Assembly (NCBI RefSeq): GCF_003491345.1
Contig: NZ_CP025513.1
Location: 372,001 to 436,000 of the forward strand
Direction of reading: 5' to 3'
From: Neorhizobium sp. SOG26
GTDB lineage: Bacteria; Pseudomonadota; Alphaproteobacteria; Rhizobiales; Rhizobiaceae
Length of the DNA: 64,000 nucleotides
Below are positions 21,483 through 55,759 of the stretch, piece by piece (within the stretch, counting starts at the first letter, position 1; the number at the start of each line of letters is the position of its first letter). The notes under the pieces are model-generated. The model did no database searches. It saw nothing but the letters and a program-made list of their open reading frames with translations, and was not told where the DNA came from. The translations under genes were made by a program, and so were the position numbers.

Positions 21483-21725
21483 ATGCTTCGCCACTTTATC
21501 AGAGACAGGTCGGGAAACTTCGGGATCGTGAGCGCGCTGCTGATGATGCCGCTCGTAGGTGTCGCAGGGTTAGCCATCGACGTCGCCGACGCCCTGACAC
21601 TGAAGACCGAGCTGCAGGATGCAGCGGACTCAGCTGCCCTCGGTTGTGTTTCGGCGTGCAAAATTTCCCCGCCGATTGACGCCGTTGATTGGTATTGTCG
21701 CACCTGTCGCCATCCTGGACAATAA
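21483..21725 (+). pseudogene. N-terminal fragment of a TadG-like pilus-assembly protein
   Basis: The frame starts MLRHFIRDRSGNFGIVSALLMMPLVGVAGLAIDVADALTL. This is the hydrophobic N-terminus of TadE/TadG-type Flp-pilus proteins, with the following LQDAADSAALG. After about 55 residues (near 21645) the sequence switches to unrelated out-of-frame reading and stops. Full-length relatives run to over 400 residues, as in the gene at 47358-48620. It is a truncated remnant. Confidence 0.75.
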
Positions 21726-35125: not shown

Positions 35126-37423
35126 ATGAAAACAAAAGCTTCGTCGCCCATAGATCCTCGATCGAGGGTGAGGATCACGACATTGGCTGAAACAGACATC
35201 AAGCGTCCACTTTGGATGACGATCACTGCCTGCGGCTTCGCTGCAGTGCTTTTTTCAAGCATCGCCATTGGTGGAACCGCTTGGTATCGCCAATCCGTCG
35301 CAAGCAGCGATGCTCTTGCACGCGAAGCCACAGGTGATCTAGCGCTAGTAGAGACTGACATGGCTGCACAAAGAAAAGCAGCATCGGCTCTAGCGCTGGC
35401 GATCGCAGGACAGCCCGACACCGCTGACCTGATCCAGCGAAATGCACGCGAAGATATCATCGCTCGTTACACCGGATCGTTGCCTTCGGTGATCGCAGAA
35501 GGCGGGCTGCAACTCATCACCTTCATCAATGGCAAGGGCGAAGCCGTTGCCCGCATCCACACGCCGGACAAATTCGGTGACGACATGACGTCACGCCGCA
35601 AAACGGTCGTGGAAGCGTTGTCCAGCGGGAAGCTTGTCGCCGGCATTGAGCCCGGCCGCTCAGCCGTCAGCATGTTTGCATCGGCACCTGTGGTGCGAGA
35701 CGGCAACGTGCTCGGTTTGGTTGACGCAGGGACGGGCTTGACCAACGCCTACTTCGAACCACTCGCCAAACGGATCGGCGGGGAGATCGCAGTCCATATC
35801 CTTGTTGATGGGAAACTAGAGAAGCAGGCATCGACATCGCAGACGGGCTTCCTTTCCGAGCAGGTGCTGAAGTCAGCTTTCGATGGGTCACCCGTTCAAG
35901 AGCAAGTCACGACCGAGAACGGCACGTATCTGGTAAGAACCGTTCCATTCAACAACTTCTCCGGCGCCAAGATTGGGATTCTCGAGATCGCATCCGACGT
36001 CACCTCAGTTGTGGAGGATGCTCGCACGGCCATCTGGATGACCGTTGGCGGAACGCTTTTCGTTTCAATCCTTTCTCTGATTGGCTTCTTCTTCTTTGCC
36101 CGTTCGCTGGGGAGTTCACTCGGCCGCTTGACACGGACGATGTCCCGACTGGCCAGTGGGGACCTCAATGCTGCGGTCGACGGTGGAGGTCGTGCCGACG
36201 AAGTTGGCGCGATGGCGCGGGCGGTGCAGGTATTCAAGGACAATGCTCTGCGCACCAGGGAACTTGAGCAGCAGGCGGAATCTCAACGCAGCCAGTCGGA
36301 AGAACAGCGTCGCCGCGCCGCGGAACAGGAGCGCATTCGTGCCGAAGCCATGGCACAGGCAACGTCCGGCCTTGCCGATGGTCTCAAGCAACTGGCCGCC
36401 GGCAACCTGACCTTCCAGCTGTCGCAGTCATTTGCTCAGGAGTTCGAGCAGTTGCGTGGTGACTTCAATCAGGCGGTCCAGCAACTGCGGGAAACAATGA
36501 CATCTGTCACGGAATCCACCGGCTCGATCGACAGCGGCTCGCGCGAGATCAGCCAAAGCGCCGAGGATCTGTCGAAGCGCACCGAGCAGCAGGCTGCCTC
36601 GCTCGAAGAGACCGCCGCAGCACTCGACCAGATCACCACCAATGTTGCGAATTCCTCCAAGCGTGCCGAAGAAGCCCGCGCAGTGGCAATCCAGGCAAAC
36701 GAAAGCGCCAATCATTCCGGCTCGGTGGTTGCCAACGCCGTTGACGCCATGGGGCGCATTGAACAGTCGTCGAACCAGATCTCCAACATCATCGGCGTCA
36801 TCGATGACATTGCCTTCCAGACCAACCTGCTGGCGTTGAACGCCGGTGTGGAAGCGGCACGCGCCGGCGACGCCGGCAAGGGCTTTGCAGTCGTCGCCCA
36901 GGAAGTACGCGAACTTGCACAGCGTTCCGCCACGGCCGCCAAGGAGATCAAGGATCTGATCCGCAACTCGTCTGGCGAAGTCGCCACCGGCGTCAAGCTG
37001 GTCAGCGAAACGGGTGAAGCCCTGAAGACGATCGAGGGCTATATCGTCACCATCAACCAGCACATGGATGCGATCGCCACCTCGGCACGCGAACAATCGG
37101 TGGGCCTGTCGGAAGTCAACACTGCCGTCAACCAGATGGACCAGGTGACGCAGCAGAACGCCGCCATGGTGGAAGAAGCCAATGCCGCCGGCGCAACGCT
37201 CGCCAACGAAGCAAGCCGCCTGCGCGAAATCGTTTCGCAGTTCCAGGTGGGCGCAGTTTCAGCCGCCAACCCCGTTCGACGTGCCGCTCCGGCTGTTGCC
37301 AGCTCCGCCGCCGCCCCGGTCTCTTCGCCGGCACGTGGCATGGTCAACAAGATCGCGCGCGCCTTTACCAGCAAGGGCATTGCTGCAGTCGCGGTTAGCA
37401 ACGAGAGCTGGGAAGAATTCTGA
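35126..37423 (+). CDS. Methyl-accepting chemotaxis protein with C-terminal CheR/CheB docking pentapeptide
   Basis: The 765-aa protein has TM1 at about 30-52, a periplasmic single-Cache-like sensor (about 55-300), TM2 at about 303-326 and a HAMP domain. A helical linker with a second HAMP-like part and the signalling domain follow, the latter with the hairpin tip IDDIAFQTNLLALNAGVEAARAGDAGKGFAVVA. It ends NESWEEF. The last five residues, SWEEF, fit the W-x-x-F tether that recruits CheR and CheB. No coupling gene is adjacent, so it must use a chemotaxis array encoded elsewhere. An 11-C tract lies at 34961-34971 upstream. Confidence 0.94.
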   Translation: MKTKASSPIDPRSRVRITTLAETDIKRPLWMTITACGFAAVLFSSIAIGGTAWYRQSVASSDALAREATGDLALVETDMAAQRKAASALALAIAGQPDTADLIQRNAREDIIARYTGSLPSVIAEGGLQLITFINGKGEAVARIHTPDKFGDDMTSRRKTVVEALSSGKLVAGIEPGRSAVSMFASAPVVRDGNVLGLVDAGTGLTNAYFEPLAKRIGGEIAVHILVDGKLEKQASTSQTGFLSEQVLKSAFDGSPVQEQVTTENGTYLVRTVPFNNFSGAKIGILEIASDVTSVVEDARTAIWMTVGGTLFVSILSLIGFFFFARSLGSSLGRLTRTMSRLASGDLNAAVDGGGRADEVGAMARAVQVFKDNALRTRELEQQAESQRSQSEEQRRRAAEQERIRAEAMAQATSGLADGLKQLAAGNLTFQLSQSFAQEFEQLRGDFNQAVQQLRETMTSVTESTGSIDSGSREISQSAEDLSKRTEQQAASLEETAAALDQITTNVANSSKRAEEARAVAIQANESANHSGSVVANAVDAMGRIEQSSNQISNIIGVIDDIAFQTNLLALNAGVEAARAGDAGKGFAVVAQEVRELAQRSATAAKEIKDLIRNSSGEVATGVKLVSETGEALKTIEGYIVTINQHMDAIATSAREQSVGLSEVNTAVNQMDQVTQQNAAMVEEANAAGATLANEASRLREIVSQFQVGAVSAANPVRRAAPAVASSAAAPVSSPARGMVNKIARAFTSKGIAAVAVSNESWEEF

Positions 37424-37948: not shown

Positions 37949-40309
37949 TTATACGGGCTGTGAACGGGCAACTCTGGCATTCGGCGCTTCAAGCAGCAAT
38001 GCGTGAGCGGGCTGGGGTCGCGCGAAGAGATAGCCCTGCACCTGCGTACAGCGCATGATCTGGAGGCAACGAAGCTGTTCCTCATTCTCCACCCCTTCTG
38101 CTGTCGTGATCATACGGAGCTCGGTGCTGAGCTGGACGATCATCTCGATCACCGAAGAGGCGTTGGCTCGCGTTGAGATATTCCGGACGAAACTTCGGTC
38201 AATCTTGATCTTGTCGAAGGGAAATGTCGTCAGGTAACTCAGCGAGGAGTATCCGGTGCCGAAATCGTCAAGGGCGATGCGTACGCCAAGCTGCCGTAGC
38301 TGATGAAGCGTCAACAATGTGCTTTCGGCAGCTTCCAGAAGCACCGACTCCGTGATTTCCAGCTCCAGCCGGTGGGGAGCCAGGCCGGTCTCCGACAAGA
38401 TACTGAGGACGCGGTTCGCAATGTTGCCCGAGTGGACCTGCATCGGGGAAATATTGACTGCAACGGTCAACTGGGAGGGCCAGTTTAGAGCCTCCTGGCA
38501 AGCGTGTCTCAGAACCCACTCTCCGATCTCGTCAATGAGGCCCAGCTTCTCTGCGACCGGGATGAAGTCCGGCGGAGGCACAAAGTCGAGGCCTCGGCGT
38601 TTCCAGCGGAGCAGGGCTTCGAAGCCTTTGACCTGCCGTGTCTGCGTATCGTGCAGCGATTGATAGTGGACTTCCAGGTGGTTCAAGGACATCGCCTCAC
38701 GCAGATCGGCCTCAAGCGACTTCTGCGCGAGCAATCGTTCCGCGATGTCCTGCGAGAAGCGGGTGACCCGGCCTTTACCGTCTGCCTTGGACTGATACAT
38801 GGCAAGGTCGGCATGTTTGAAGACTTCGTCCGGCGTGCAGTTTGTCCCGATGTGCGCGGCGATCCCGATACTGGCGGTCACGACAACATTGCGACCATCC
38901 AGATGGAAGGGCTCGGCGATTGCCGCGAGGATGCGTTCGGCAAGCTCGCTCGCGTCATCCGAGGTGCAACCCGGACGCGTGAGGATTGCGAACTCGTCCC
39001 CGCCCAGGCGACCTACGATCCCTTCGTGTGCAACACAGGAGCGAAGTCGGGCGGCAACCTCCCTCAGCATCTGGTCGCCGATGTCGTGCCCAAGGGTATC
39101 GTTCACTTCTTTGAACCCGTCCAGATCGAGAAGGAGGATATCGCAACCATCTTCGATGGCTGGCTCGGCACATCGGTCCAGCAATTTCTTTCGCATGAGA
39201 ACGCGGTTCGGCAGCCCCGTCAGCGCGTCATGGTGCGCCATGTGGAAGATTCGCGCTTCCGTTTGCCTGCGCTCGCTTACGTCTTCATAAGTGGCAAGCC
39301 AACCTCCATCGGGGATTGGCTCATGGGAAACGGCGTATGCCCCGCCATCCGGCAGATCTACGGTAAAGCGCCCTTTCCTTCTTCCCTCGATGAAACTCGA
39401 TTGCTGCTGCAAGATGATCTCGATGACTGAGGGCGTATTTTGCCCCGCCGCGGCTGCAATGACTTTCTTTAAGTCCATTCCGGCCAAGGTGGCGGGCGCG
39501 ATCCCGACCAGTTTTGCGAACTGGTCGTTGAAGACGATCAACTGGCCATCAACATTACAGGTGCATAATGCCTGTGACATGCTGTTCAGCGCCGCATCGA
39601 AGCGCTGGTTCTGCGAGACGAGGCTTTTATGTGCTTCCTCGAGCTTCGTTGCCGTCGTTTGCAGCTTCACATGCGCCTTGCGCACAAGCTTGTTCTGCCG
39701 CCAGATCAGCGTGATCAGAAGGATTCCGCAGAAGATCAGGCCTGACATGAGCCCGGACAGGATGAGGTGCAGCCGGGCCAGTTCCCGTTGGTCGGCTTCC
39801 GAACGCTCGGCCCCGTAGGCCGCCGCGCGCGAGGTCAAGGCTGTCATGTCAGCGTTTAGCGACTCGAGAGTTTGCAGCGCCCCTCCTACATCGAATGCCG
39901 GGTCATTCGTGTTCAACAAGCCATCGATAGTTTCCAGGCTTGCGCGGAGCCGTTCGACCACCCTCTCGTTGCGTACGTCACTCCTGATGAACTGCCTCAG
40001 GCTCCGGCCTTTGCCGAATTCCGTCTCCTCGCTGGGCTGGAACGTGTCCAGTCGGCTGAACATGATATCCAGCCGTAGTTGAACGTCATCTAAAGTAGTC
40101 GCTCCTTGCGGCAGCGCATAGGATGCCAAGGTACGCTCAAGCTCCAGAAACTCGGCGACTGCCTGGCTGACGGTCCAGGCGGCATTGTAGCGGGAAATCG
40201 TCTGCAGGGCGGCCTGCCGCTGGGAGATGACGACCGCCGTATAGCCAGCGGCAAGCATCAAGAAACAGACTACGGCGGCGAGAACTCTTTCCAACGCCTT
40301 GGGCGGCAT
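37949..40309 (-). CDS. Membrane GGDEF-EAL protein with PAS domain
   Basis: The 786-aa protein has TM1 at about 9-29, a helical periplasmic sensor (about 30-180), TM2 at about 184-203 and a PAS domain (about 235-350). GGDEF (436-440) is intact but the usual RxxD inhibitory site is not visible. The EAL domain has EALLRW (564-569), NISPMQ, EITE, DDFGTGYSSL and KIDRSF, so both cyclase and phosphodiesterase activity are possible. A gene for a secreted molybdopterin-domain-like protein lies 17 bases upstream and is read first. The pair is probably one unit in which that protein supplies a periplasmic signal (inference). Confidence 0.92.
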   Translation of the reverse strand: MPPKALERVLAAVVCFLMLAAGYTAVVISQRQAALQTISRYNAAWTVSQAVAEFLELERTLASYALPQGATTLDDVQLRLDIMFSRLDTFQPSEETEFGKGRSLRQFIRSDVRNERVVERLRASLETIDGLLNTNDPAFDVGGALQTLESLNADMTALTSRAAAYGAERSEADQRELARLHLILSGLMSGLIFCGILLITLIWRQNKLVRKAHVKLQTTATKLEEAHKSLVSQNQRFDAALNSMSQALCTCNVDGQLIVFNDQFAKLVGIAPATLAGMDLKKVIAAAAGQNTPSVIEIILQQQSSFIEGRRKGRFTVDLPDGGAYAVSHEPIPDGGWLATYEDVSERRQTEARIFHMAHHDALTGLPNRVLMRKKLLDRCAEPAIEDGCDILLLDLDGFKEVNDTLGHDIGDQMLREVAARLRSCVAHEGIVGRLGGDEFAILTRPGCTSDDASELAERILAAIAEPFHLDGRNVVVTASIGIAAHIGTNCTPDEVFKHADLAMYQSKADGKGRVTRFSQDIAERLLAQKSLEADLREAMSLNHLEVHYQSLHDTQTRQVKGFEALLRWKRRGLDFVPPPDFIPVAEKLGLIDEIGEWVLRHACQEALNWPSQLTVAVNISPMQVHSGNIANRVLSILSETGLAPHRLELEITESVLLEAAESTLLTLHQLRQLGVRIALDDFGTGYSSLSYLTTFPFDKIKIDRSFVRNISTRANASSVIEMIVQLSTELRMITTAEGVENEEQLRCLQIMRCTQVQGYLFARPQPAHALLLEAPNARVARSQPV

Positions 40310-42118: not shown

Positions 42119-42949
42119 TCAGGTTTGAGATTGCGAGCTGATGAACTCGCGCGGGGACTGATATCCTAATGCGCTGTGCGGGTGAAGATTGTTGTAGTGC
42201 TCGAACCAGAACGGCAGTTGAGCGATGACGGTTTCAGCATCCGGGGTGGGATTGACCGAGACGTAATCGCGCTTGAAGGTTTTGACGAACGCCTCGGCCA
42301 TGCCATTCGATTGTGGACTGCGCACCGGCGTCGTGCACGGCTCCATGCCGATGTCGCGCAGTAAGGATGCGGTGTCCTTGGCGATGAAGCAGGAGCCGTT
42401 GTCGGTGAGCCATTCGATAGGTTTGGACAGCATGTTGATGCGGCCGAAGCGGTTCTCGACAGCGGTGATCACCAGGTCCTGCACGTCTTCGCTCTTGATA
42501 CCTTCGGTGGTGGCAACATGGGCGATTGCTTCACGGTCGCAGCAGTCGAGGGCGAAGGCGACACGGACCTTCTCCTTGTTGTCGCAGCCGATCTCGAAGC
42601 CGTCGGAGCACCATCTAATGTTCGAACGCTCGACGGCGACCCGGTCGTTGTGAAGGCGATCATCGACCGCTCCGGTGTGGCGCACCAACAGCAGATTGTG
42701 CAGCTTCATGACACGTTAAACGCGTTTGGCATTGGGCCACGAACGTCCGTCTTTCCGGGCATTCCGACGCAGGATGGCATGGACACGACGATAGCCGTAG
42801 GTGGGCGTTTCGGCGATGACGGCCTTGATGTCCTCCACCAATTCGCGATCAGGTAGTGGCGGGCGTCCTCTGGCTCTGGAAGGGGAGCCTGCGGCACGCG
42901 CCGCGATATTCGACCAGGCGACACGAAGAGTTTCGCAGACGGTCTTCAT
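42119..42949 (-). pseudogene. IS3-family OrfB with a premature stop
   Basis: The frame runs from ATG 42949 ([21 protein letters not shown], then YGYRRVHAILRRN) to NAKRV and meets TAA at 42718-42716. It then resumes in the same frame with RVMKLHNLLLVRHTG and the integrase core (IRWCSDGFEIGCD, WLTDNGSCF, NGMAEAFVKTFKRDY). Relatives have a Tyr codon where the stop is. A single base change therefore splits an otherwise complete OrfB. Confidence 0.88.
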
Positions 42950-43432: not shown

Positions 43433-46045
43433 TTAGGCGGAGATCGAAGCATCGAGTTCTGCCATGGCAACTAAGGTGTCGCTCAACGCAAGTTCAAGCT
43501 CGCGTAGGAGCGCGTGGTCAGCTGTAGCGCCCGAAACCAGCACCGTTTCAATCCGCTCGCAGATTGACATCGCTCTTGCAGCCCCTGCACTCGAGCAGTT
43601 CGACTTTAAAGCATGAATGAGCCGCTTCCCCTCCGGACCATTTGACATGATCTCAGCAACCGCCGTTCGAAATGCATCGAGCGCGCTAGCGCGAAACATT
43701 GCAAAGACCTTACTGCGTATATCCGCTCCTGTGCTCGTCCGTATGTTCTCGAACATCGTCATGGTTTCGCTTGAGAGTAGCGAGTCCACCCCATGGTTTG
43801 TGACTATGTCTTCCCCATTTCCGGGACGAACGATCTGCAGGTCGTGGAAAACCCTGGTCAACTGAGCGATATTGAAAGGCTTTGCGAGGTAGCTGTTCAT
43901 CCCCGCATCTTTCCAATTTCCACTCTCCGTGCCCATGACGTGTCCGGTCAGCGCGATGATGAGTGAGGGCTGGCGAGCCGCAACCTGCTCCAGCGCGCGG
44001 ATCTCTCTGCTAGCTTCGAAGCCATCCATTCCAGGCATGGAGCAGTCCATGAATATGACATCATACGATCTGGCGCGAGCCTGGCTGATCGCGTCCTGAC
44101 CGGACTCGGCGAGGTCGGCTTGGATCCCAAACGTCCTCAAAGCTTCTGCGAGAACCTCACGATTCACGGCTACGTCGTCGACGGCAAGCACCTTGAGGTG
44201 ACGCAGGTCTGGAAGAACGTTCGTGCGCTTTTCCCGGCAATCAAAGTCAAGCGTCGAAAAATCACCGTCCTCCACGGCTGCACAGACTAGGTCGAACGCC
44301 GACCGCGGAATTGGAAGTGGAACTTCTGCGGTGACGTCAAGATGGTTCGGAATAGAGACTGACGTAGCGGCGAAGGGGCGAAGGAGGACGATAGGCATGC
44401 CGAGCGCAATATCGGAGAGATCGTGAGAAGTGCCGGCGCGGATGAATACAGCCTTGCAGACGCCACTCGTCCTTTCAAACACAGAGATACCCCTTGCCTC
44501 CAAGGCTTGGGCAACAGACCAACGGGTTATGACGTCGTCATCGAACAGAGCAACCGAAAAGTCAAAGCGCTTCGATATCTCACTCGCTGCTTCAGTCATC
44601 TTGAACGGAATCGATATGATGAACCGAGACCCTTTCTCAACCTGGCTTTCGACCCGAACCGTCCCTTTCATCAGTTCGGTCAGTTGTTTCGAGATCGATA
44701 GGCCGAGTCCAGTCCCGCCGAACTTGCGAGTAATGCTGGAGTCGGCTTGGGAGAAGCGCGTGAAGATCCTATGGATCTGGTGGGAGGCTATGCCTATCCC
44801 CGTGTCCTCTACCGTAATGGCAATCTGGTCGTCGACCACCTCGAGCCTGATCGTAACACCGCCCGTCTCGGTAAACTTCAAGCCATTGTTGACCAAGTTA
44901 CTAACGATCTGCGTCAGGCGTACGGGATCACCGACGACTTTGAAAGGCACCTGAGGTGAGATGAATACGGCGAGCGAAAGTCCCTTCTCCCTCGCCCGCT
45001 CTGAGAACAGACAAGCTACATCCTCAACAAGAGCATCGAGAGAAAACTCAACCTCCTCGAGTTCGATTTTACCCGATTCGATCTTCGAAAAATCCAGGAT
45101 GTCGTTGATTATGTGAATGAGGTTCTTGCCGGATCTTGTGATAATCTCCGCATATCGTTGATGCCTTGGCGACAGCGGCGCCGCCGACAGCATCTCGGCC
45201 ATCACCATCATGCCGTTCATCGGCGTTCGGATTTCGTGACTCATCGTTGCAAGGAAGGTGGACTTGGCAGCATTTGCTGCATCCGCTTCATCCTTTGCCG
45301 CTCGAAGCTCTTTGGTGCGCGCGTCCACCGTCTCCTCCAAAGTCTCCATATGTCGTTGCAGAAGACGATCGCGCTCATCGATATGCGCAAACATCTGGTT
45401 GAACGCGTCGACCAGCACGCCCACCTCGTCGTTGCGTTGCTTGTTCAGACGGCGCCTGAGGTCGGACCGTTGGCCGATGTCGATGAATTGTTCTGATAGA
45501 TCCCGTAGAGGACGGATGACCCGCACCACCTTGATCCTGGCGAGGTACGAAGTTAGGCCTACAAGCATGCCCCCGAACAGAAATGCATAAAGGGCGGCGT
45601 ATAGGTAACGTTCGATCAGGTCCTTTGGCTGTGCGCGCATCAACACCGATCCCACAGATCGGCCGGCACGCCTCACGTCGGCTGTCACCTCGATCGTCGT
45701 CGGGATGTGCCACCAAGCGTCCTCTCGCCCGACTAGCCTAGCCCCGCCTCCGATCTCGGCAATCACGTCTCCAGTTGAATCAAGCGTCGCGATATATCCC
45801 ACCTCAGGAAGATTGCGGACACCGCGGATGACTTCGAGTACCGTGCGAGCGTTCTGTTCAGCAACGCCGTCACTGGCGGCAGCAGCAAAGGCAAAGGCCG
45901 CGCTCTGGTAGCGAGACGTCTCAGCTAGCATCGACTGACGAAAGTCAACGACAAGGAAACCACCTACGGTAACGCTAATACCTGTGGCCACCGCTGCGAT
46001 GACAATCCGTGAGATACGGGTCGAGATCGGGCTATCAGGCTTCAT
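43433..46045 (-). CDS. Membrane hybrid histidine kinase: HAMP-HisKA-HATPase-pseudoreceiver-receiver-Hpt
   Basis: The 870-aa protein has TM1 at about 12-33, a periplasmic loop to about 148, TM2 at about 149-168 and HAMP (about 170-222). HisKA has MSHEIRTPMNG (His270); the HATPase has NLVNNGLKF, DTGIGIA and GGTGLGLS. A degenerate receiver-like region follows (about 497-590). The true receiver has Asp667 in FMDCSMPGMDG, and a C-terminal Hpt domain has His811 in IHALKSNCSSAG. It contains all relay steps up to Hpt, so it needs an external receiver. The divergently encoded receiver-EAL protein 150 bases away is the prime candidate. An IS3 element ends 24 bases past its stop. Confidence 0.93.
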   Translation of the reverse strand: MKPDSPISTRISRIVIAAVATGISVTVGGFLVVDFRQSMLAETSRYQSAAFAFAAAASDGVAEQNARTVLEVIRGVRNLPEVGYIATLDSTGDVIAEIGGGARLVGREDAWWHIPTTIEVTADVRRAGRSVGSVLMRAQPKDLIERYLYAALYAFLFGGMLVGLTSYLARIKVVRVIRPLRDLSEQFIDIGQRSDLRRRLNKQRNDEVGVLVDAFNQMFAHIDERDRLLQRHMETLEETVDARTKELRAAKDEADAANAAKSTFLATMSHEIRTPMNGMMVMAEMLSAAPLSPRHQRYAEIITRSGKNLIHIINDILDFSKIESGKIELEEVEFSLDALVEDVACLFSERAREKGLSLAVFISPQVPFKVVGDPVRLTQIVSNLVNNGLKFTETGGVTIRLEVVDDQIAITVEDTGIGIASHQIHRIFTRFSQADSSITRKFGGTGLGLSISKQLTELMKGTVRVESQVEKGSRFIISIPFKMTEAASEISKRFDFSVALFDDDVITRWSVAQALEARGISVFERTSGVCKAVFIRAGTSHDLSDIALGMPIVLLRPFAATSVSIPNHLDVTAEVPLPIPRSAFDLVCAAVEDGDFSTLDFDCREKRTNVLPDLRHLKVLAVDDVAVNREVLAEALRTFGIQADLAESGQDAISQARARSYDVIFMDCSMPGMDGFEASREIRALEQVAARQPSLIIALTGHVMGTESGNWKDAGMNSYLAKPFNIAQLTRVFHDLQIVRPGNGEDIVTNHGVDSLLSSETMTMFENIRTSTGADIRSKVFAMFRASALDAFRTAVAEIMSNGPEGKRLIHALKSNCSSAGAARAMSICERIETVLVSGATADHALLRELELALSDTLVAMAELDASISA

Positions 46046-46194
46046 TTGTTTCCTCTTTTTAGAGAGGATCGCAGAAATTCCTTAACCAGACGGAACGGAA
46101 GAACGATCGATCGCATGAACGGTGCGATTTCCTGCGCACGCCTAGTAATAGGTTCTTATTCATTCTCATATGTCCTCCATATCAGGAGGCTTTA

Positions 46195-47361
46195 ATGAAG
46201 CATTCAATCAACTGCCTGATCGTAGATGACGACCCGATGTATGCCATCGTGGCATCTAGCATCTTGTCGACGCTTACATCGGGCTTATTGCGAACGGCAC
46301 CCTGCGGACGGGCCGGACTGGCTGCATTGACACGGGAGGCGCGCGACACCGACCTCGTCTTCTTGGACCTCAACATGCCGGACCTTGATGGCCTTGCGTT
46401 CATGCGCGCAGCGCACGAGGTTGGTTATGCTGGGAATATCGTTATTTCTAGCGGCGAAAGCCGCGCGGTTCTCCGGTCTGCGGAGGCCATGGGCAGAATG
46501 CTTGGGATCTCGATCCTCGGTGTCCTTACCAAGCCACTGACGATGGAGGGGGTCGCCGAGATGCTCGCGAAGTCAGAGATGACAAGGGGGCCGTCGGCCA
46601 AGCTTGGGGGACTGGCTGGTAAGGACTGCGAACTGACTCCGTACTACCAGCCTCAATATGATCTCGCGACGCTTAGAATTGCAGGTTTCGAATCCCTGAT
46701 CCGACTGACCTCAAAAGATGGCCGAATCCATGGACCGGCAGATCTCTTTTCATCGGTCAACGGACTTGAGGATCTAACCGCTGTTTCGCTGGAGATCGCG
46801 ACTAAAGTCGTGCGTGACTTCCGAACTTGGCCAGTTGGCCGAACTCGAGCTGATGTATCAATAAATTTCGACGCCTCCGTCCTTGAGCGGCCACACGTAA
46901 TCGCCGATCTCCAGCAGGCTGTGACTGACCTTAGCGCAGATCCAAACACGATTTGCATAGAGGTTACGGAAAAATCGCTCCCTAAAGATCCCTCGCGTTT
47001 GGTCGAGGCTCTGACGAGGTTGAGGATGTTTGGGTTCAAGCTATCGCTGGATGACTATGGAATGGGAGCTTCTAGCTTTGAGCTCCTTCGGCTTTGTCCA
47101 TTCTCAGAGATCAAGGTTGACAGGTCAATCATCGAAGCATGCCCGCATGATCGCGTCACACGAAAGTTTTTGCACGCGGTTGCGGGGCTTGCCCGGGACC
47201 TTGAACTTGTCTCTGTTGCCGAAGGCGTTGAAAACCAGGAAGAACTGTCAGAGGTTCGTGCGGCGGGCATGGATCGCGTACAGGGTTTTTTGTTCTCTCG
47301 ACCGGTGCCATCCCAAGCAGTTGCTGAACTGATGAGCGATCCGGAGGCATATCCGGCATGA
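46195..47361 (+). CDS. Response regulator with EAL phosphodiesterase domain
   Basis: A good AGGAGG precedes the ATG at 46195. The 388-aa protein has a receiver (DDD at 11-13, phosphoacceptor Asp58 in FLDLNMP, Lys in LTKPL) and an EAL domain (about 145-385). The signature reads ESL (166-168), but the residues needed for metal and catalysis appear kept: Glu166, Asn224, Glu256, Asp286/Asp287, Lys307 and Glu343. It probably hydrolyses cyclic di-GMP when phosphorylated (inference). The next gene, TadG-like, overlaps its end by ATGA, tying it to pilus or surface-protein production. Confidence 0.92.
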   Translation: MKHSINCLIVDDDPMYAIVASSILSTLTSGLLRTAPCGRAGLAALTREARDTDLVFLDLNMPDLDGLAFMRAAHEVGYAGNIVISSGESRAVLRSAEAMGRMLGISILGVLTKPLTMEGVAEMLAKSEMTRGPSAKLGGLAGKDCELTPYYQPQYDLATLRIAGFESLIRLTSKDGRIHGPADLFSSVNGLEDLTAVSLEIATKVVRDFRTWPVGRTRADVSINFDASVLERPHVIADLQQAVTDLSADPNTICIEVTEKSLPKDPSRLVEALTRLRMFGFKLSLDDYGMGASSFELLRLCPFSEIKVDRSIIEACPHDRVTRKFLHAVAGLARDLELVSVAEGVENQEELSEVRAAGMDRVQGFLFSRPVPSQAVAELMSDPEAYPA

Positions 47362-48620
47362 TTGGATCTTCGGTGCTGCGGACGTCCCACCGTATATTGG
47401 CTTGCACACGTGGCCACATGGCAATGCTCACGGGAATCATGGCTCCGCTGTTAATCGGTGTCGCGGGCGGCGCTGTCGACGTGAGCGCATTTCTGACGCA
47501 CAGGACAAACCTGCAGAACATCGCCGATGCCGCAGCTCTTGGTGCGGCGAAGGAGGCCTCCTTGAATGGCTGGGCAAACTCTGCCGCAGTCGCGGTCGTG
47601 AACGGTTACCTCGAAGCGCACAAGCACTCCGGGGCTGAGGGCACCGTTGAAGCGAAAGTCGAAGTGGACTCCATCAAAAAGCAGGTCACCGTAACACTTG
47701 AGCAGGACCACCATCCGTATTTCGTGGTTGGGTATCTTGTTGGAAGTCCGCAGATTCGAGTGTCATCGGCCGCTCAGACCAATAACAACACCAACATTTG
47801 CGTTATTGGGTTAGACGAGGCAGATGCAGCGACGGTGTCGCTCGAAACAAATGCGGCGATTTCGGCCCCGAAATGTACGGTCTACTCGAATTCTTTGAGC
47901 ACGAGCGGCCTCACCTCAACTGGAAACGCCAACCTCGTCAGCCAGCTCGCCTGTTCGGCAGGCGGTTTTGCTGGCGCACCGCGGAACTTCAACTATCACA
48001 ATCCCTTGACGGACTGTCCTAAAGTCGCGGATCCTCTCGCCTCTCGTCCGCCTCCAGCTGTTGGTCCCTGCCGTGAGATGGAGGCCGACTATCAACAGTA
48101 CATTGGAAACCTACAGCCGGGGGTCTACTGCGGGGGTTTGACCATCCGCGCCTCTTCTCAGGTTTCGCTCAAGCCAGGCATATACGTCATCAAGGACGGA
48201 CCGCTGATCATAGAATCCAGCTCTGTAGTTGAGGGTAAAGGTGTCGGCTTCTATTTTACGGGAAAACACGCCGGCATGTTGTTCGGAAGCAGCGCGCAGG
48301 TCGACATCGAGGCTCCCATTACTGGCGCTTTGGCCGGCCTCGTCACCTTTCAGGACCGCGCATCCGCTGAAACGGACTTCGTAATCACGAGCAACAAAGC
48401 GCGAAAGCTACTCGGCACAATCTACCTTGCCAACGGAAACTTGATTATCGACGCCAATAACAAGGTTGCCGACGCGTCAGCATACACAGCCATCGTCGTC
48501 AGGCGTCTTCGCCTCTCCAAGGGACCCAACCTCGTGCTGAACACTGACTATAACAAGACTCTTGTGCCGGTTCCTGAAGGCGTCGGTGAGCAAGCGACCA
48601 CGGTGCACCTACTATACTGA
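47358..48620 (+). CDS. TadG-like pilus-assembly/surface protein
   Basis: The 420-aa protein has a TadE/TadG N-terminus: a basic lead, a single hydrophobic segment (MAMLTGIMAPLLIGVAGGAVDVSAFL) and then LQNIADAAALGAAKEAS. The remainder is an extracytoplasmic beta-rich region with six or more Cys and repeated Gly/Ser-rich strands (ITGALAGLVTFQDRASAETDFVITSN). It has no von Willebrand domain, unlike classical TadG, and is shorter. Its ATG overlaps the stop of the receiver-EAL gene. No other tad genes are present, so it may act with a Flp-pilus system encoded elsewhere or independently. Confidence 0.82.
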   Translation: MIGSSVLRTSHRILACTRGHMAMLTGIMAPLLIGVAGGAVDVSAFLTHRTNLQNIADAAALGAAKEASLNGWANSAAVAVVNGYLEAHKHSGAEGTVEAKVEVDSIKKQVTVTLEQDHHPYFVVGYLVGSPQIRVSSAAQTNNNTNICVIGLDEADAATVSLETNAAISAPKCTVYSNSLSTSGLTSTGNANLVSQLACSAGGFAGAPRNFNYHNPLTDCPKVADPLASRPPPAVGPCREMEADYQQYIGNLQPGVYCGGLTIRASSQVSLKPGIYVIKDGPLIIESSSVVEGKGVGFYFTGKHAGMLFGSSAQVDIEAPITGALAGLVTFQDRASAETDFVITSNKARKLLGTIYLANGNLIIDANNKVADASAYTAIVVRRLRLSKGPNLVLNTDYNKTLVPVPEGVGEQATTVHLLY

Positions 48621-53000: not shown

Positions 53001-53351
53001 ATGGCAAAACACCGCAGTCACAGCGTCGAATTCAAACGTCAGCTCGCGCAGGAATTCTTGGCCGGCGAAACGCTGCATGGTCTGGCAAAACGCCACGACG
53101 TGTCGCGCAACCTTATCCGCATCTGGGTGCAGAAGTATGAGCAAGGCGCATTCGACGACGATGCGCAGGCGGTCGATCTCATCCAGGAATACGAGGCCCG
53201 GATCGCCGCCCTCGAGCGGCTGGTTGGCAAGCAGGCTCTGGAACTGGAATTTCTAAAGGGGGCTCTGAAAAGCGCACCGCGGCGGAAAAACGGGACTACA
53301 TCCATCATCACCGGCCCCGCGGCATCTCCGTCGCGGAAGGATGCCGGCTGA
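53001..53351 (+). CDS. IS3-family transposase OrfA
   Basis: The 116-aa frame starts [20 protein letters not shown] with a helix-turn-helix ([23 protein letters not shown]) and a coiled coil ([21 protein letters not shown]). Near CTGAAAAGC at about 53266-53274 the -1 frame becomes coding ([38 protein letters not shown]). The last 25 codons are therefore probably not translated usefully and the frameshift product is the transposase. Confidence 0.92.
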
Positions 53352-54148
53352 TGGGAATGGCGCGCTCCACCTATTATGACTGTCCAGAACGGCCGGCCGA
53401 CGACACCGCGATCGTTGAAGCGATGTTCGCAATCTGCGACGAGTTCGAGTTCTACGGCTACCGCCGTGTCGGTGCGGCCCTGCGACAGCAGGGTCTTGTC
53501 GTGAACCACAAGAAGATCCGTCGCCTCATGCGCGAACACGATCTGCGTCCGAAGATCAAGCGACGTTTCATTGCCACGACCGACAGTGACCACGACGGCC
53601 CGATCTTCCCGAACTTGGCGAAGGACATCATCCCGAGCGGTCCCAACCAGCTCTGGGTCAGCGACATCACCTATGTCGCTTTGCCGGCCCGGTTCATCTA
53701 CGTCGCCATCATCCTCGATGCCTGGTCGCGGTTGATCGTCGGTTACGCCATCGGTCGGTCGATCGACGCACGGCTGACGATGGCAGCCTTGAAGGCGGCC
53801 ATTGACCAGAGAAAGCCGCCGCCGGGCGTGGTCCACCATTCGGATCGCGGCTCGCAGTATGCTGCCGAGCTCTACCGCGAGACACTGGCCGTCAACGGCT
53901 TGATCGGCTCGATGGGCCGCCGCGGCAATCCGTACGACAACGCCAAGGCCGAAAGCTTCATGAAAACGCTGAAGGTCGAGGCGGTCTATCCGATGGCCTT
54001 CGAAACCTTCGAAGAGATCACCGAGCACCTTCCCCACTTCATCGAGGAGGTCTACAACAAACGCCGGCTCCATTCAGCGCTCGGCTATTTGAGCCCGCAA
54101 CAGTTCGAGGATCAACACATCCGGCAGACTGGCAAATCAGCAGCCTGA
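53351..54148 (+). CDS. IS3-family transposase OrfB
   Basis: The 265-aa frame from the first in-frame ATG contains an HTH_21 segment ([31 protein letters not shown]). The rve core has WVSDITYV (Asp), [10 protein letters not shown] (Asp) and [15 protein letters not shown] (Glu). The -1 frame is open for at least 25 more codons upstream, so the natural product begins by frameshifting from OrfA. It is complete to [16 protein letters not shown]. Confidence 0.93.
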
Positions 54149-54268
54149 TCCTTGTCCACCCCAAGGGGCGCACTCCACTGGCGGGGTGATACTTATCCAA
54201 TTTTGACCCCTCCCTATTTTCATCGGACCATCCGGCTTTTCAGCGGATGGAGTGGGGAGTTGAAGAGT

Positions 54269-55759
54269 GTGGATACGATTGCGCGTGTCCGACGAGCCTT
54301 CCATGTTCAGGGTTGGTCGGTAAAGAAGATCGCCAGAGAACTGAATGTTTCGCGGAATACGGTCCGCAAGATTGTGCGCTCCGATGCCACCGAGTTTACC
54401 TATAAGCGAGAACATCAGCCGCTACCCCGGATCGGAGCCTGGAGTGGCGATGTCGAGCGGTTCTTGATTTCGAACGAAGGCAAGCCGTCTCGTGAGCGGC
54501 TGACGTTGATCCGGATTTATGAAGAGGTCCGGGCTCTTGGCTATGATGGCAGCTACGATACCGTCCGCCGTTACGCCAAGTCCTGGGCCAAGGCACGCGG
54601 AACGGTCACGTCCGAGGCTTACGTTCCGCTCTACTATGCACCCGGCGAAGCCTACCAATTCGATTGGAGCCACGAGATCGTCCTGATCCAGGGCGTGACG
54701 ACGACGGTGAAGGTGGCGCATGTCCGGCTCTGCCACAGCCGGATGATGTTCGTCCGGGCCTATATGCGAGAGAGCCAGGAGATGGTCTTCGATGCGCATG
54801 ACAAGGCCTTCGCCTTCTTCCGTGGCACCTGCACACGCGGCATCTATGACAACATGAAGACGGCGGTTGAGGCCGTGTTCGTCGGCAAGGGACGTGTTTA
54901 TAACCGCCGGTTCCTGCAGATGTGCAGCCACTATCTCGTCCAGCCAGTTGCCTGCACGCCAGCATCCGGCTGGGAGAAAGGACAGGTCGAGAACCAGGTC
55001 GGCCTTGTACGCGAGCGTTTCTTTACGCCACGCCTCAGGGTCAAAAGCCTGGAAGAGCTGAATGCCTGGCTACTCGATAAATGCATTGCCTATGCCAAGG
55101 CTCATGGCCATCCCGAACAGACGGGACAGACGATCTGGCAGGTATTCGAAGCCGAACGCAGCAGCCTCGTGCGCTACGTCGGCCCATTCGACGGTTTCCA
55201 CAGTGTCCCGGCATCCGTGTCAAAGACCTGCACGGTCCGTTTCGATAACAATAAATACTCCGTCCTCTCAACGGCGGTGGGTCGCCCTGTCGAAGTTCAC
55301 GCCTACGCCGACCGGATCGTTATCCGACAGGACGGGATGAATGTGGGTGAACACGAGCGTTGCTTCGGCCGAGGTGAGACCACTTACAATCCTTGGCACT
55401 ATGTTCCTGTCCTCGCTCGCAAACCTGGCGCATTGCGTAACGGCGCACCATTCAGAGACTGGGCGCTGCCAGCCGCGATGGAGAAGGTCCGCAAACGGCT
55501 GAAGAGCGACGATGATGGTGATCGGCAAATGGTTGCCATCCTTGCATGCGTGCCCGTTGACGGTCTCACGGCTGTCGAAGCGGCCTGCCAGGAGGCTCTC
55601 GATCATGGCGTCTGCTCCGCATCCGTGATCATCAATATTCTGGCTCGAAGCCGCGATCCGGCTCCCGCCGTGACCCTGCAAATCCCGGATGCGCTTCGGC
55701 TTGCCCATGAGCCGGTCGCCGACTGCGCTCGTTACGAGAGGCTCAGGAGGGTAAGTTGA
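54269..55759 (+). CDS. istA: IS21 transposase IstA (second type)
   Basis: The GTG at 54269 follows GTGGGGAG by about nine bases and gives 496 aa; an apparent ATG at 54152 lies inside the nested IS3 element. Domains are an N-terminal helix-turn-helix ([22 protein letters not shown]), the integrase core ([34 protein letters not shown]) and the C-terminal [24 protein letters not shown]. It is related to, but clearly different from, the IstA at 32642-34177. Confidence 0.94.

Follow-up and report, generated by a model that had tools for sequence, protein, structure and literature searches.

YfiN, the membrane sensor of the YfiBNR system of Pseudomonas aeruginosa, carries a CHASE8 domain. Together with its periplasmic partner YfiR, this PAS-type sensor forms a highly modular core, distant members of which have GGDEF-EAL, Hpt or sensor kinase outputs (as described in PMC3375315). 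In P. aeruginosa PA14 the kinase PvrS works on RcsB, a DNA-binding protein, with a set of chaperone-usher genes as the target (PMC3842833), and in Caulobacter the pilin-family protein PilA acts both on the sensor kinase PleC and on cyclic di-GMP (c-di-GMP; PMC10790692 and PMC12918737). Here we describe a module of three genes in Neorhizobium sp. SOG26, located within a stretch of 64,000 nucleotides (the window; NZ_CP025513.1, forward-strand positions 372,001–436,000) and encoding a hybrid sensor kinase, a receiver-EAL response regulator and a TadG-like protein, hereafter the Tad protein. From sequence comparisons we propose that these form a self-contained envelope-to-c-di-GMP switch with the Tad protein as the steady partner of the sensor, a reading to which we give a probability of roughly 0.6. 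No description of such a sensor–phosphodiesterase–Tad module was found in the accessible parts of the open-licence PMC literature.

The kinase gene (window positions 43433..46045, reverse strand, 870 aa) is separated by a divergent intergenic stretch of 149 bases (46046–46194) from the receiver-EAL gene (46195..47361, forward strand, 388 aa), which is preceded by a likely ribosome binding site, AGGAGG, at 46184..46189 on the same strand. The receiver-EAL gene in turn overlaps the Tad gene (47358..48620, forward strand, 420 aa) through a stop-start ATGA at 47358..47361. All three frames are open, and the arrangement given in a preliminary description of this DNA, in which a kinase with its own Hpt diverges from a receiver-EAL gene that shares an ATGA with the TadG-like gene after it, is borne out by the open reading frames, Pfam domains and key residues. 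That description had also suggested examining synteny in related genomes, and the same divergent trio is indeed present in seven other records (L068–L074), six of them labelled with Rhizobiaceae genus names and one as a Rhizobiales bacterium. The four-base overlap between receiver-EAL and Tad genes is available in all seven, as ATGA in six and as GTGA in L070. The ratios of nonsynonymous to synonymous substitution rates (dN/dS) relative to L068 are 0.11 for the kinase, 0.08 for the receiver-EAL gene and 0.05 for the Tad gene, indicating purifying selection on all three and most strongly on the last; because these ratios are low and the triad recurs at seven other loci, the trio is more than a set of chance open reading frames. 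In two of the relatives a gene is interrupted by sequencing error or decay: the kinase frame of L072 (Rhizobium sp. 32-5/1) is broken at several places, and the receiver-EAL gene of L074 (CC-CFT758) is split into two frames.

The association of sensor and Tad genes extends well beyond these relatives. An alignment of Tad proteins (A1) was searched against 397 genomes of the order Hyphomicrobiales and 394 of the family, which are overlapping sets, and DNA was taken around each listed Tad place with an E value of up to 1.6e-90. At most four candidates per genome were scored, so that copies may be missed; all frames were scanned with domain models derived from the three genes themselves, by which distant receivers may be missed. 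Six of the survey loci are also in A1, as are two more that correspond to L070 and L073, which makes the set partly dependent, and the window's own locus is excluded from the counts. The stretches contain 113 Tad genes scoring at least 200 bits, and a sensor domain, in some cases a fragment, lies within 6 kb of 70 of these; 21 of the other 43 are near contig ends. Among the 76 strong Tad genes whose flanks are complete (5 kb or more to either side), the sensor is no further than 6 kb away in 54, and for comparison a one-copy gene is estimated to fall within 6 kb of another by chance in about 0.3% of cases in a 4-Mb genome. As a control, 20 weaker Tad places were selected from those listed; the sensor is near 0/20 of them, and a GGDEF-EAL gene lies within 6 kb of 3/20. 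In all, 31 different arrangements (order and orientation) of the recognised genes are seen, with the set still together. Tandem pairs of genes of the same Tad family are present at L276, L294 and L341, with no sensor in view.

The reverse survey, in which a sensor alignment (A4) was searched against the 397 genomes of the order at a threshold of E≤1e-25, yielded 52 sensor places in 51 genomes. A Tad gene is beside 41 of these (two of the 41 are cut by contig ends), and four of the 52 are cut off to one side by a contig end no more than 200 bases away. A Tad match at 1e-40 is present in 48 of the 51 genomes with the sensor as against 38 of the 346 without it. Mirror-tree analysis of 61 loci, using distances uncorrected for relatedness, supports co-inheritance, in that Tad distances follow those of the sensor more closely than those of the kinase core (partial r 0.44 vs 0.18). 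In a search at the level of the class, with the window genome included, Tad is found in 21/327 genomes at 1e-50 and the sensor in 13/327 at 1e-15; beyond the order, one genome (G1076) has Tad, receiver and sensor kinase together, and in another (G915) Tad and sensor are about 3 kb apart. Judged from these surveys, it is sensor and Tad, rather than EAL and Tad, that make up the steadier pair across the order.

The third component of the set is a c-di-GMP phosphodiesterase whose form is interchangeable. One is near or fused in 59 of the 70 sensor loci, and with complete flanks it is present at 48 of 54 Tad loci that have the sensor but at just 2 of 22 that lack it (Fisher p 4e-11, a guide only since the loci are related). 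The outputs at the 70 loci are receiver-EAL (37), EAL with a separate receiver (7), a kinase-Hpt-EAL fusion (4; L213, L214, L219 and L228, with a further example, L331, outside the survey), sensor-GGDEF-EAL (3), sensor-EAL (2), GGDEF-EAL (2), sensor-HD-GYP (2), receiver-HD-GYP (2) and none (11). HD-GYP is unrelated to EAL and does the same enzymatic job. It takes the place of EAL at L245, L304, L286 and L287: the two sensor-HD-GYP genes (L245 and L304), which have HD and HHExxDGxGY motifs, are nearly identical to each other and, along with a Tad gene, belong to a single genome (G528), those for receiver-HD-GYP come from two genomes of one genus (G231 and G349), and each swap may thus be one event. 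The occurrence of HD-GYP beside the same sensor and Tad therefore indicates c-di-GMP hydrolysis as the output better than one locus could.

The kinase has Pfam matches to HAMP, HisKA, HATPase_c and Response_reg, and its Hpt falls slightly below the Pfam cut-off (23.3 vs 24.6 bits), that of two fused relatives scoring 46.6 and 40.6 bits. The domain order is N-terminal sensor (with two predicted transmembrane helices), HAMP, HisKA, HATPase, receiver and Hpt. The sensor part (residues 1–235; 45341..46045, reverse strand) is modelled as a helix, a small beta domain and a second helix (mean predicted local distance difference test score, pLDDT, 64; no PDB match at E≤0.001), which would correspond to a small extracytoplasmic domain between two membrane helices, followed by HAMP. 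CHASE8 matches at E≤1 are found in five of nine sensor rows, with a best value of 3.5e-5 and none in the window row, and we consider the domain CHASE8-like on the strength of these weak matches in relatives. Each phosphoacceptor on the reverse strand is invariant among aligned relatives: His270 of HisKA (45236..45238) in 77/77, Asp667 of the internal receiver (44045..44047) in 76/76 and His811 of Hpt (43613..43615) in 74/74. The preliminary description had the kinase without a final receiver in its chain; none follows the Hpt, but the receiver containing Asp667 precedes it.

The receiver-EAL protein matches Response_reg and EAL in Pfam, and its receiver phosphoacceptor, Asp58 (46366..46368, forward strand), is an aspartate in 45/45 aligned relatives. 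The best NCBIfam model is RR_EAL_PvrR (NF052596), at 207.5 bits and short of its cut-off of 580. The signature reads ESL in six of nine aligned rows, including that of the window, and EAL in three. As had been claimed for this protein, its catalytic residues are kept notwithstanding the ESL signature: all nine checked positions (E166, N224, E256, E259, D286, D287, K307, E343 and Q363) are present, and the EAL residues are preserved in 45/45 aligned receiver-EAL proteins. We therefore dropped ESL as a sign of inactivity, and the domain is very likely to be active as a phosphodiesterase.

The Tad protein matches PF13400 with 41.7 bits against a cut-off of 22.3. Tad is its sole Pfam match at E≤0.01, in keeping with the earlier observation that it has no von Willebrand domain, and the annotation of an ortholog on a plasmid reads TadG-related. 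The PF13400 N-terminus is present in 14/14 aligned rows, and of six conserved cysteines five are in 14/14 rows and one in 13. The substrate motif of prepilin peptidase is a Glu at +5 after an N-terminal Gly; this is found in 0/14 Tad rows. Overall the structure model is of low quality (mean pLDDT 50.3), apart from a confidently modelled, beta-rich region near residues 231–310 that is predicted to be a beta-solenoid; the best Foldseek match to the model, an ice-binding protein at E 1.0, is not significant. The Flp genes are distant from the module, which is on contig C3, while genes for RcpC and prepilin peptidase are on C1 near 3.28 Mb. Both of these markers are present in 18/18 module genomes checked; as the comparison is confined to module-bearing genomes, it says little on whether the Tad protein is input or output.

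With a HisKA histidine, a receiver aspartate, an Hpt histidine and a separate receiver-EAL protein all present, the locus would belong to the general kind of hybrid kinase-Hpt phosphorelays with a receiver-EAL regulator. In the mechanism we envisage, the kinase would read the state of the envelope through its extracytoplasmic domain, and what is known of such domains suggests that phosphate would then pass from His270 to Asp667, to His811 and finally to Asp58 of the receiver-EAL protein. That the relay reaches Asp58 is very probable. The dedicated relay of the preliminary description gains support by comparison, from conserved neighbours, kinase-Hpt-EAL fusions, retained residues and the HD-GYP swap. 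Phosphate on Asp58 would alter hydrolysis of c-di-GMP by the EAL protein, up or down. The Tad protein, translationally coupled to the enzyme, would sit in the inner membrane with its cysteine-rich part outside, and would contribute to sensing in the manner of YfiR with YfiN, or of the pilin PilA with PleC; perhaps it is also what the switch adjusts.

Several observations weigh against this reading. No sensor is near 22 of the 76 strong Tad genes for which both flanks are complete, and 7 of the 52 sensor places have no Tad in their visible flanks (six of these seven genomes have a Tad of the family elsewhere). At 11 of the 70 sensor loci there is no phosphodiesterase within 6 kb; nine of these show just receivers or receiver-kinases, and two, at contig ends, show nothing. 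In the 38 receiver-EAL loci the Tad protein tracks sensor and EAL equally in the mirror-tree comparison. In the three sensor-GGDEF-EAL fusions the GGDEF motif is intact, and synthesis of c-di-GMP would be possible as well; the sensor match at both sensor-EAL loci (L221, L222) is weak (38–92 bits), and no sensor row rises above the Pfam cut-off for CHASE8 (L245 has 25.7 vs 27 bits). A pilus role is also possible for the module, given the Flp genes in all 18 module genomes. As an observation on the receiver-kinases, proteins of about 400 aa with receiver, HisKA and HATPase domains adjoin the sensor kinase at L127 (240–1460), L129 (7606–8889), L207 and L223, and appear to be cases of a receiver feeding another kinase.

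It is highly likely that the Tad protein is functionally linked. The preliminary description took it as output only, such that the relay lowers c-di-GMP and so adjusts a surface structure containing the Tad-like protein. Both kinase and EAL are tied to the Tad gene, as that model had it, but the sensor is the steadier of its two companions, and for this reason the Tad protein may be input and not output. Nine sensor loci pair Tad and sensor with no phosphodiesterase in view, and the opposite case, a phosphodiesterase but no sensor, is seen at just two of the fully flanked Tad genes. These patterns stand against an output-only role, which would on the other hand account for the translational coupling of receiver-EAL and Tad genes in the window and its seven relatives, and for the Flp pilus markers elsewhere in the 18 module genomes; in addition PvrR, the nearest named receiver-EAL model, is part of a network controlling CupD fimbriae (PMC3842833). 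Also against an output-only role is the rate of change of the Tad gene, which between window and L068 evolves more slowly than the other two; many surface proteins, unlike this one, are not slow-evolving. Overall we rate output alone as a serious but minority possibility, and a role as input, either alone or in combination with output, as not far short of an even chance; a role that is neither is unlikely. The Tad protein as the sensor's partner fits the pattern at least as well as control of a surface appendage does.

It is conceivable that these are neighbours with no shared function, an orphan Tad gene that travels with a kinase pair as mobile cargo. Of 35 other genomes of the genus, 2 have a full-length receiver-EAL ortholog (split in one of them), the trio being sporadic within the genus, two of the seven relatives are plasmid records, transposase genes are on either side of the module in the window, and the sensor is absent near those 22 of 76 strong Tad genes. 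Such cargo would hardly be kept together through 31 gene orders and across many families within the order, nor have its kinase and EAL fused in several of them or the same place taken by unrelated phosphodiesterases, and we regard this explanation as very improbable. Returning to the Tad protein as the sensor's partner, we suggest more tentatively, at somewhat less than even odds, that it is a non-pilus, dedicated envelope partner, and that a widespread sensor-Tad core, a counterpart of YfiR-YfiN, has been plugged into nearly every kind of c-di-GMP phosphodiesterase wiring: a phosphorelay that ends in EAL or HD-GYP, the kinase-Hpt-EAL fusion, and a sensor joined directly to EAL or to HD-GYP. 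If so, TadG-related orphans next to sensors of this type would encode signalling proteins.

The surroundings of the module include transposase (integrase core) genes at window positions 42119–42709, 53351–54148 and 54152–55759, the nearest about 0.7 kb from the 3′ end of the kinase gene, and a few kb away are genes for a dCache chemoreceptor (35126–37423) and a PAS-GGDEF-EAL protein (37949–40309). At 21485–21660 is the start of another Tad-type gene, with a PF13400 match and an open frame of 103 aa that is soon lost, and which looks like a remnant. Promoter scans of the 149-base divergent stretch and terminator scans gave scores no better than those of shuffled sequences, and Rfam gave no match at its thresholds.

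In comparison with described systems, the module appears to be a conserved form of modular signalling from the envelope to c-di-GMP. Outside pilus clusters, TadG-like genes receive pilus assembly as their default annotation, and the module gives one Tad subfamily a testable role and a partner domain, with an output predicted by natural swaps among unrelated phosphodiesterases. It shares with TadG of Flp systems the PF13400 N-terminus, and differs in having its own six-cysteine C-terminal half and in lying outside the Flp cluster. Like PvrSR/RcsCB, and RocSAR, which is a similar case, it has a receiver-EAL protein, a hybrid kinase network and adjoining surface genes; in contrast to the gene cluster there it has a single Tad gene, it lacks such a DNA-binding regulator, and the PvrR cut-off is not reached. 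The YfiR family has no match among the scanned genes of the window (the survey loci were not scanned for it). YfiBNR resembles the module in placing the gene of an extracytoplasmic partner beside a membrane sensor of the CHASE8/PAS type with a c-di-GMP output, the differences being that the module's partner is a Tad-domain protein rather than YfiR and that its main output would degrade c-di-GMP via a phosphorelay. The Caulobacter pilin is a true pilus subunit, unlike what we propose here, and the outcome there is more c-di-GMP, via PleD. If the Tad protein does serve as input, the module would add to PilA and PleC a further example in which a pilin-like protein acts on a sensor kinase.

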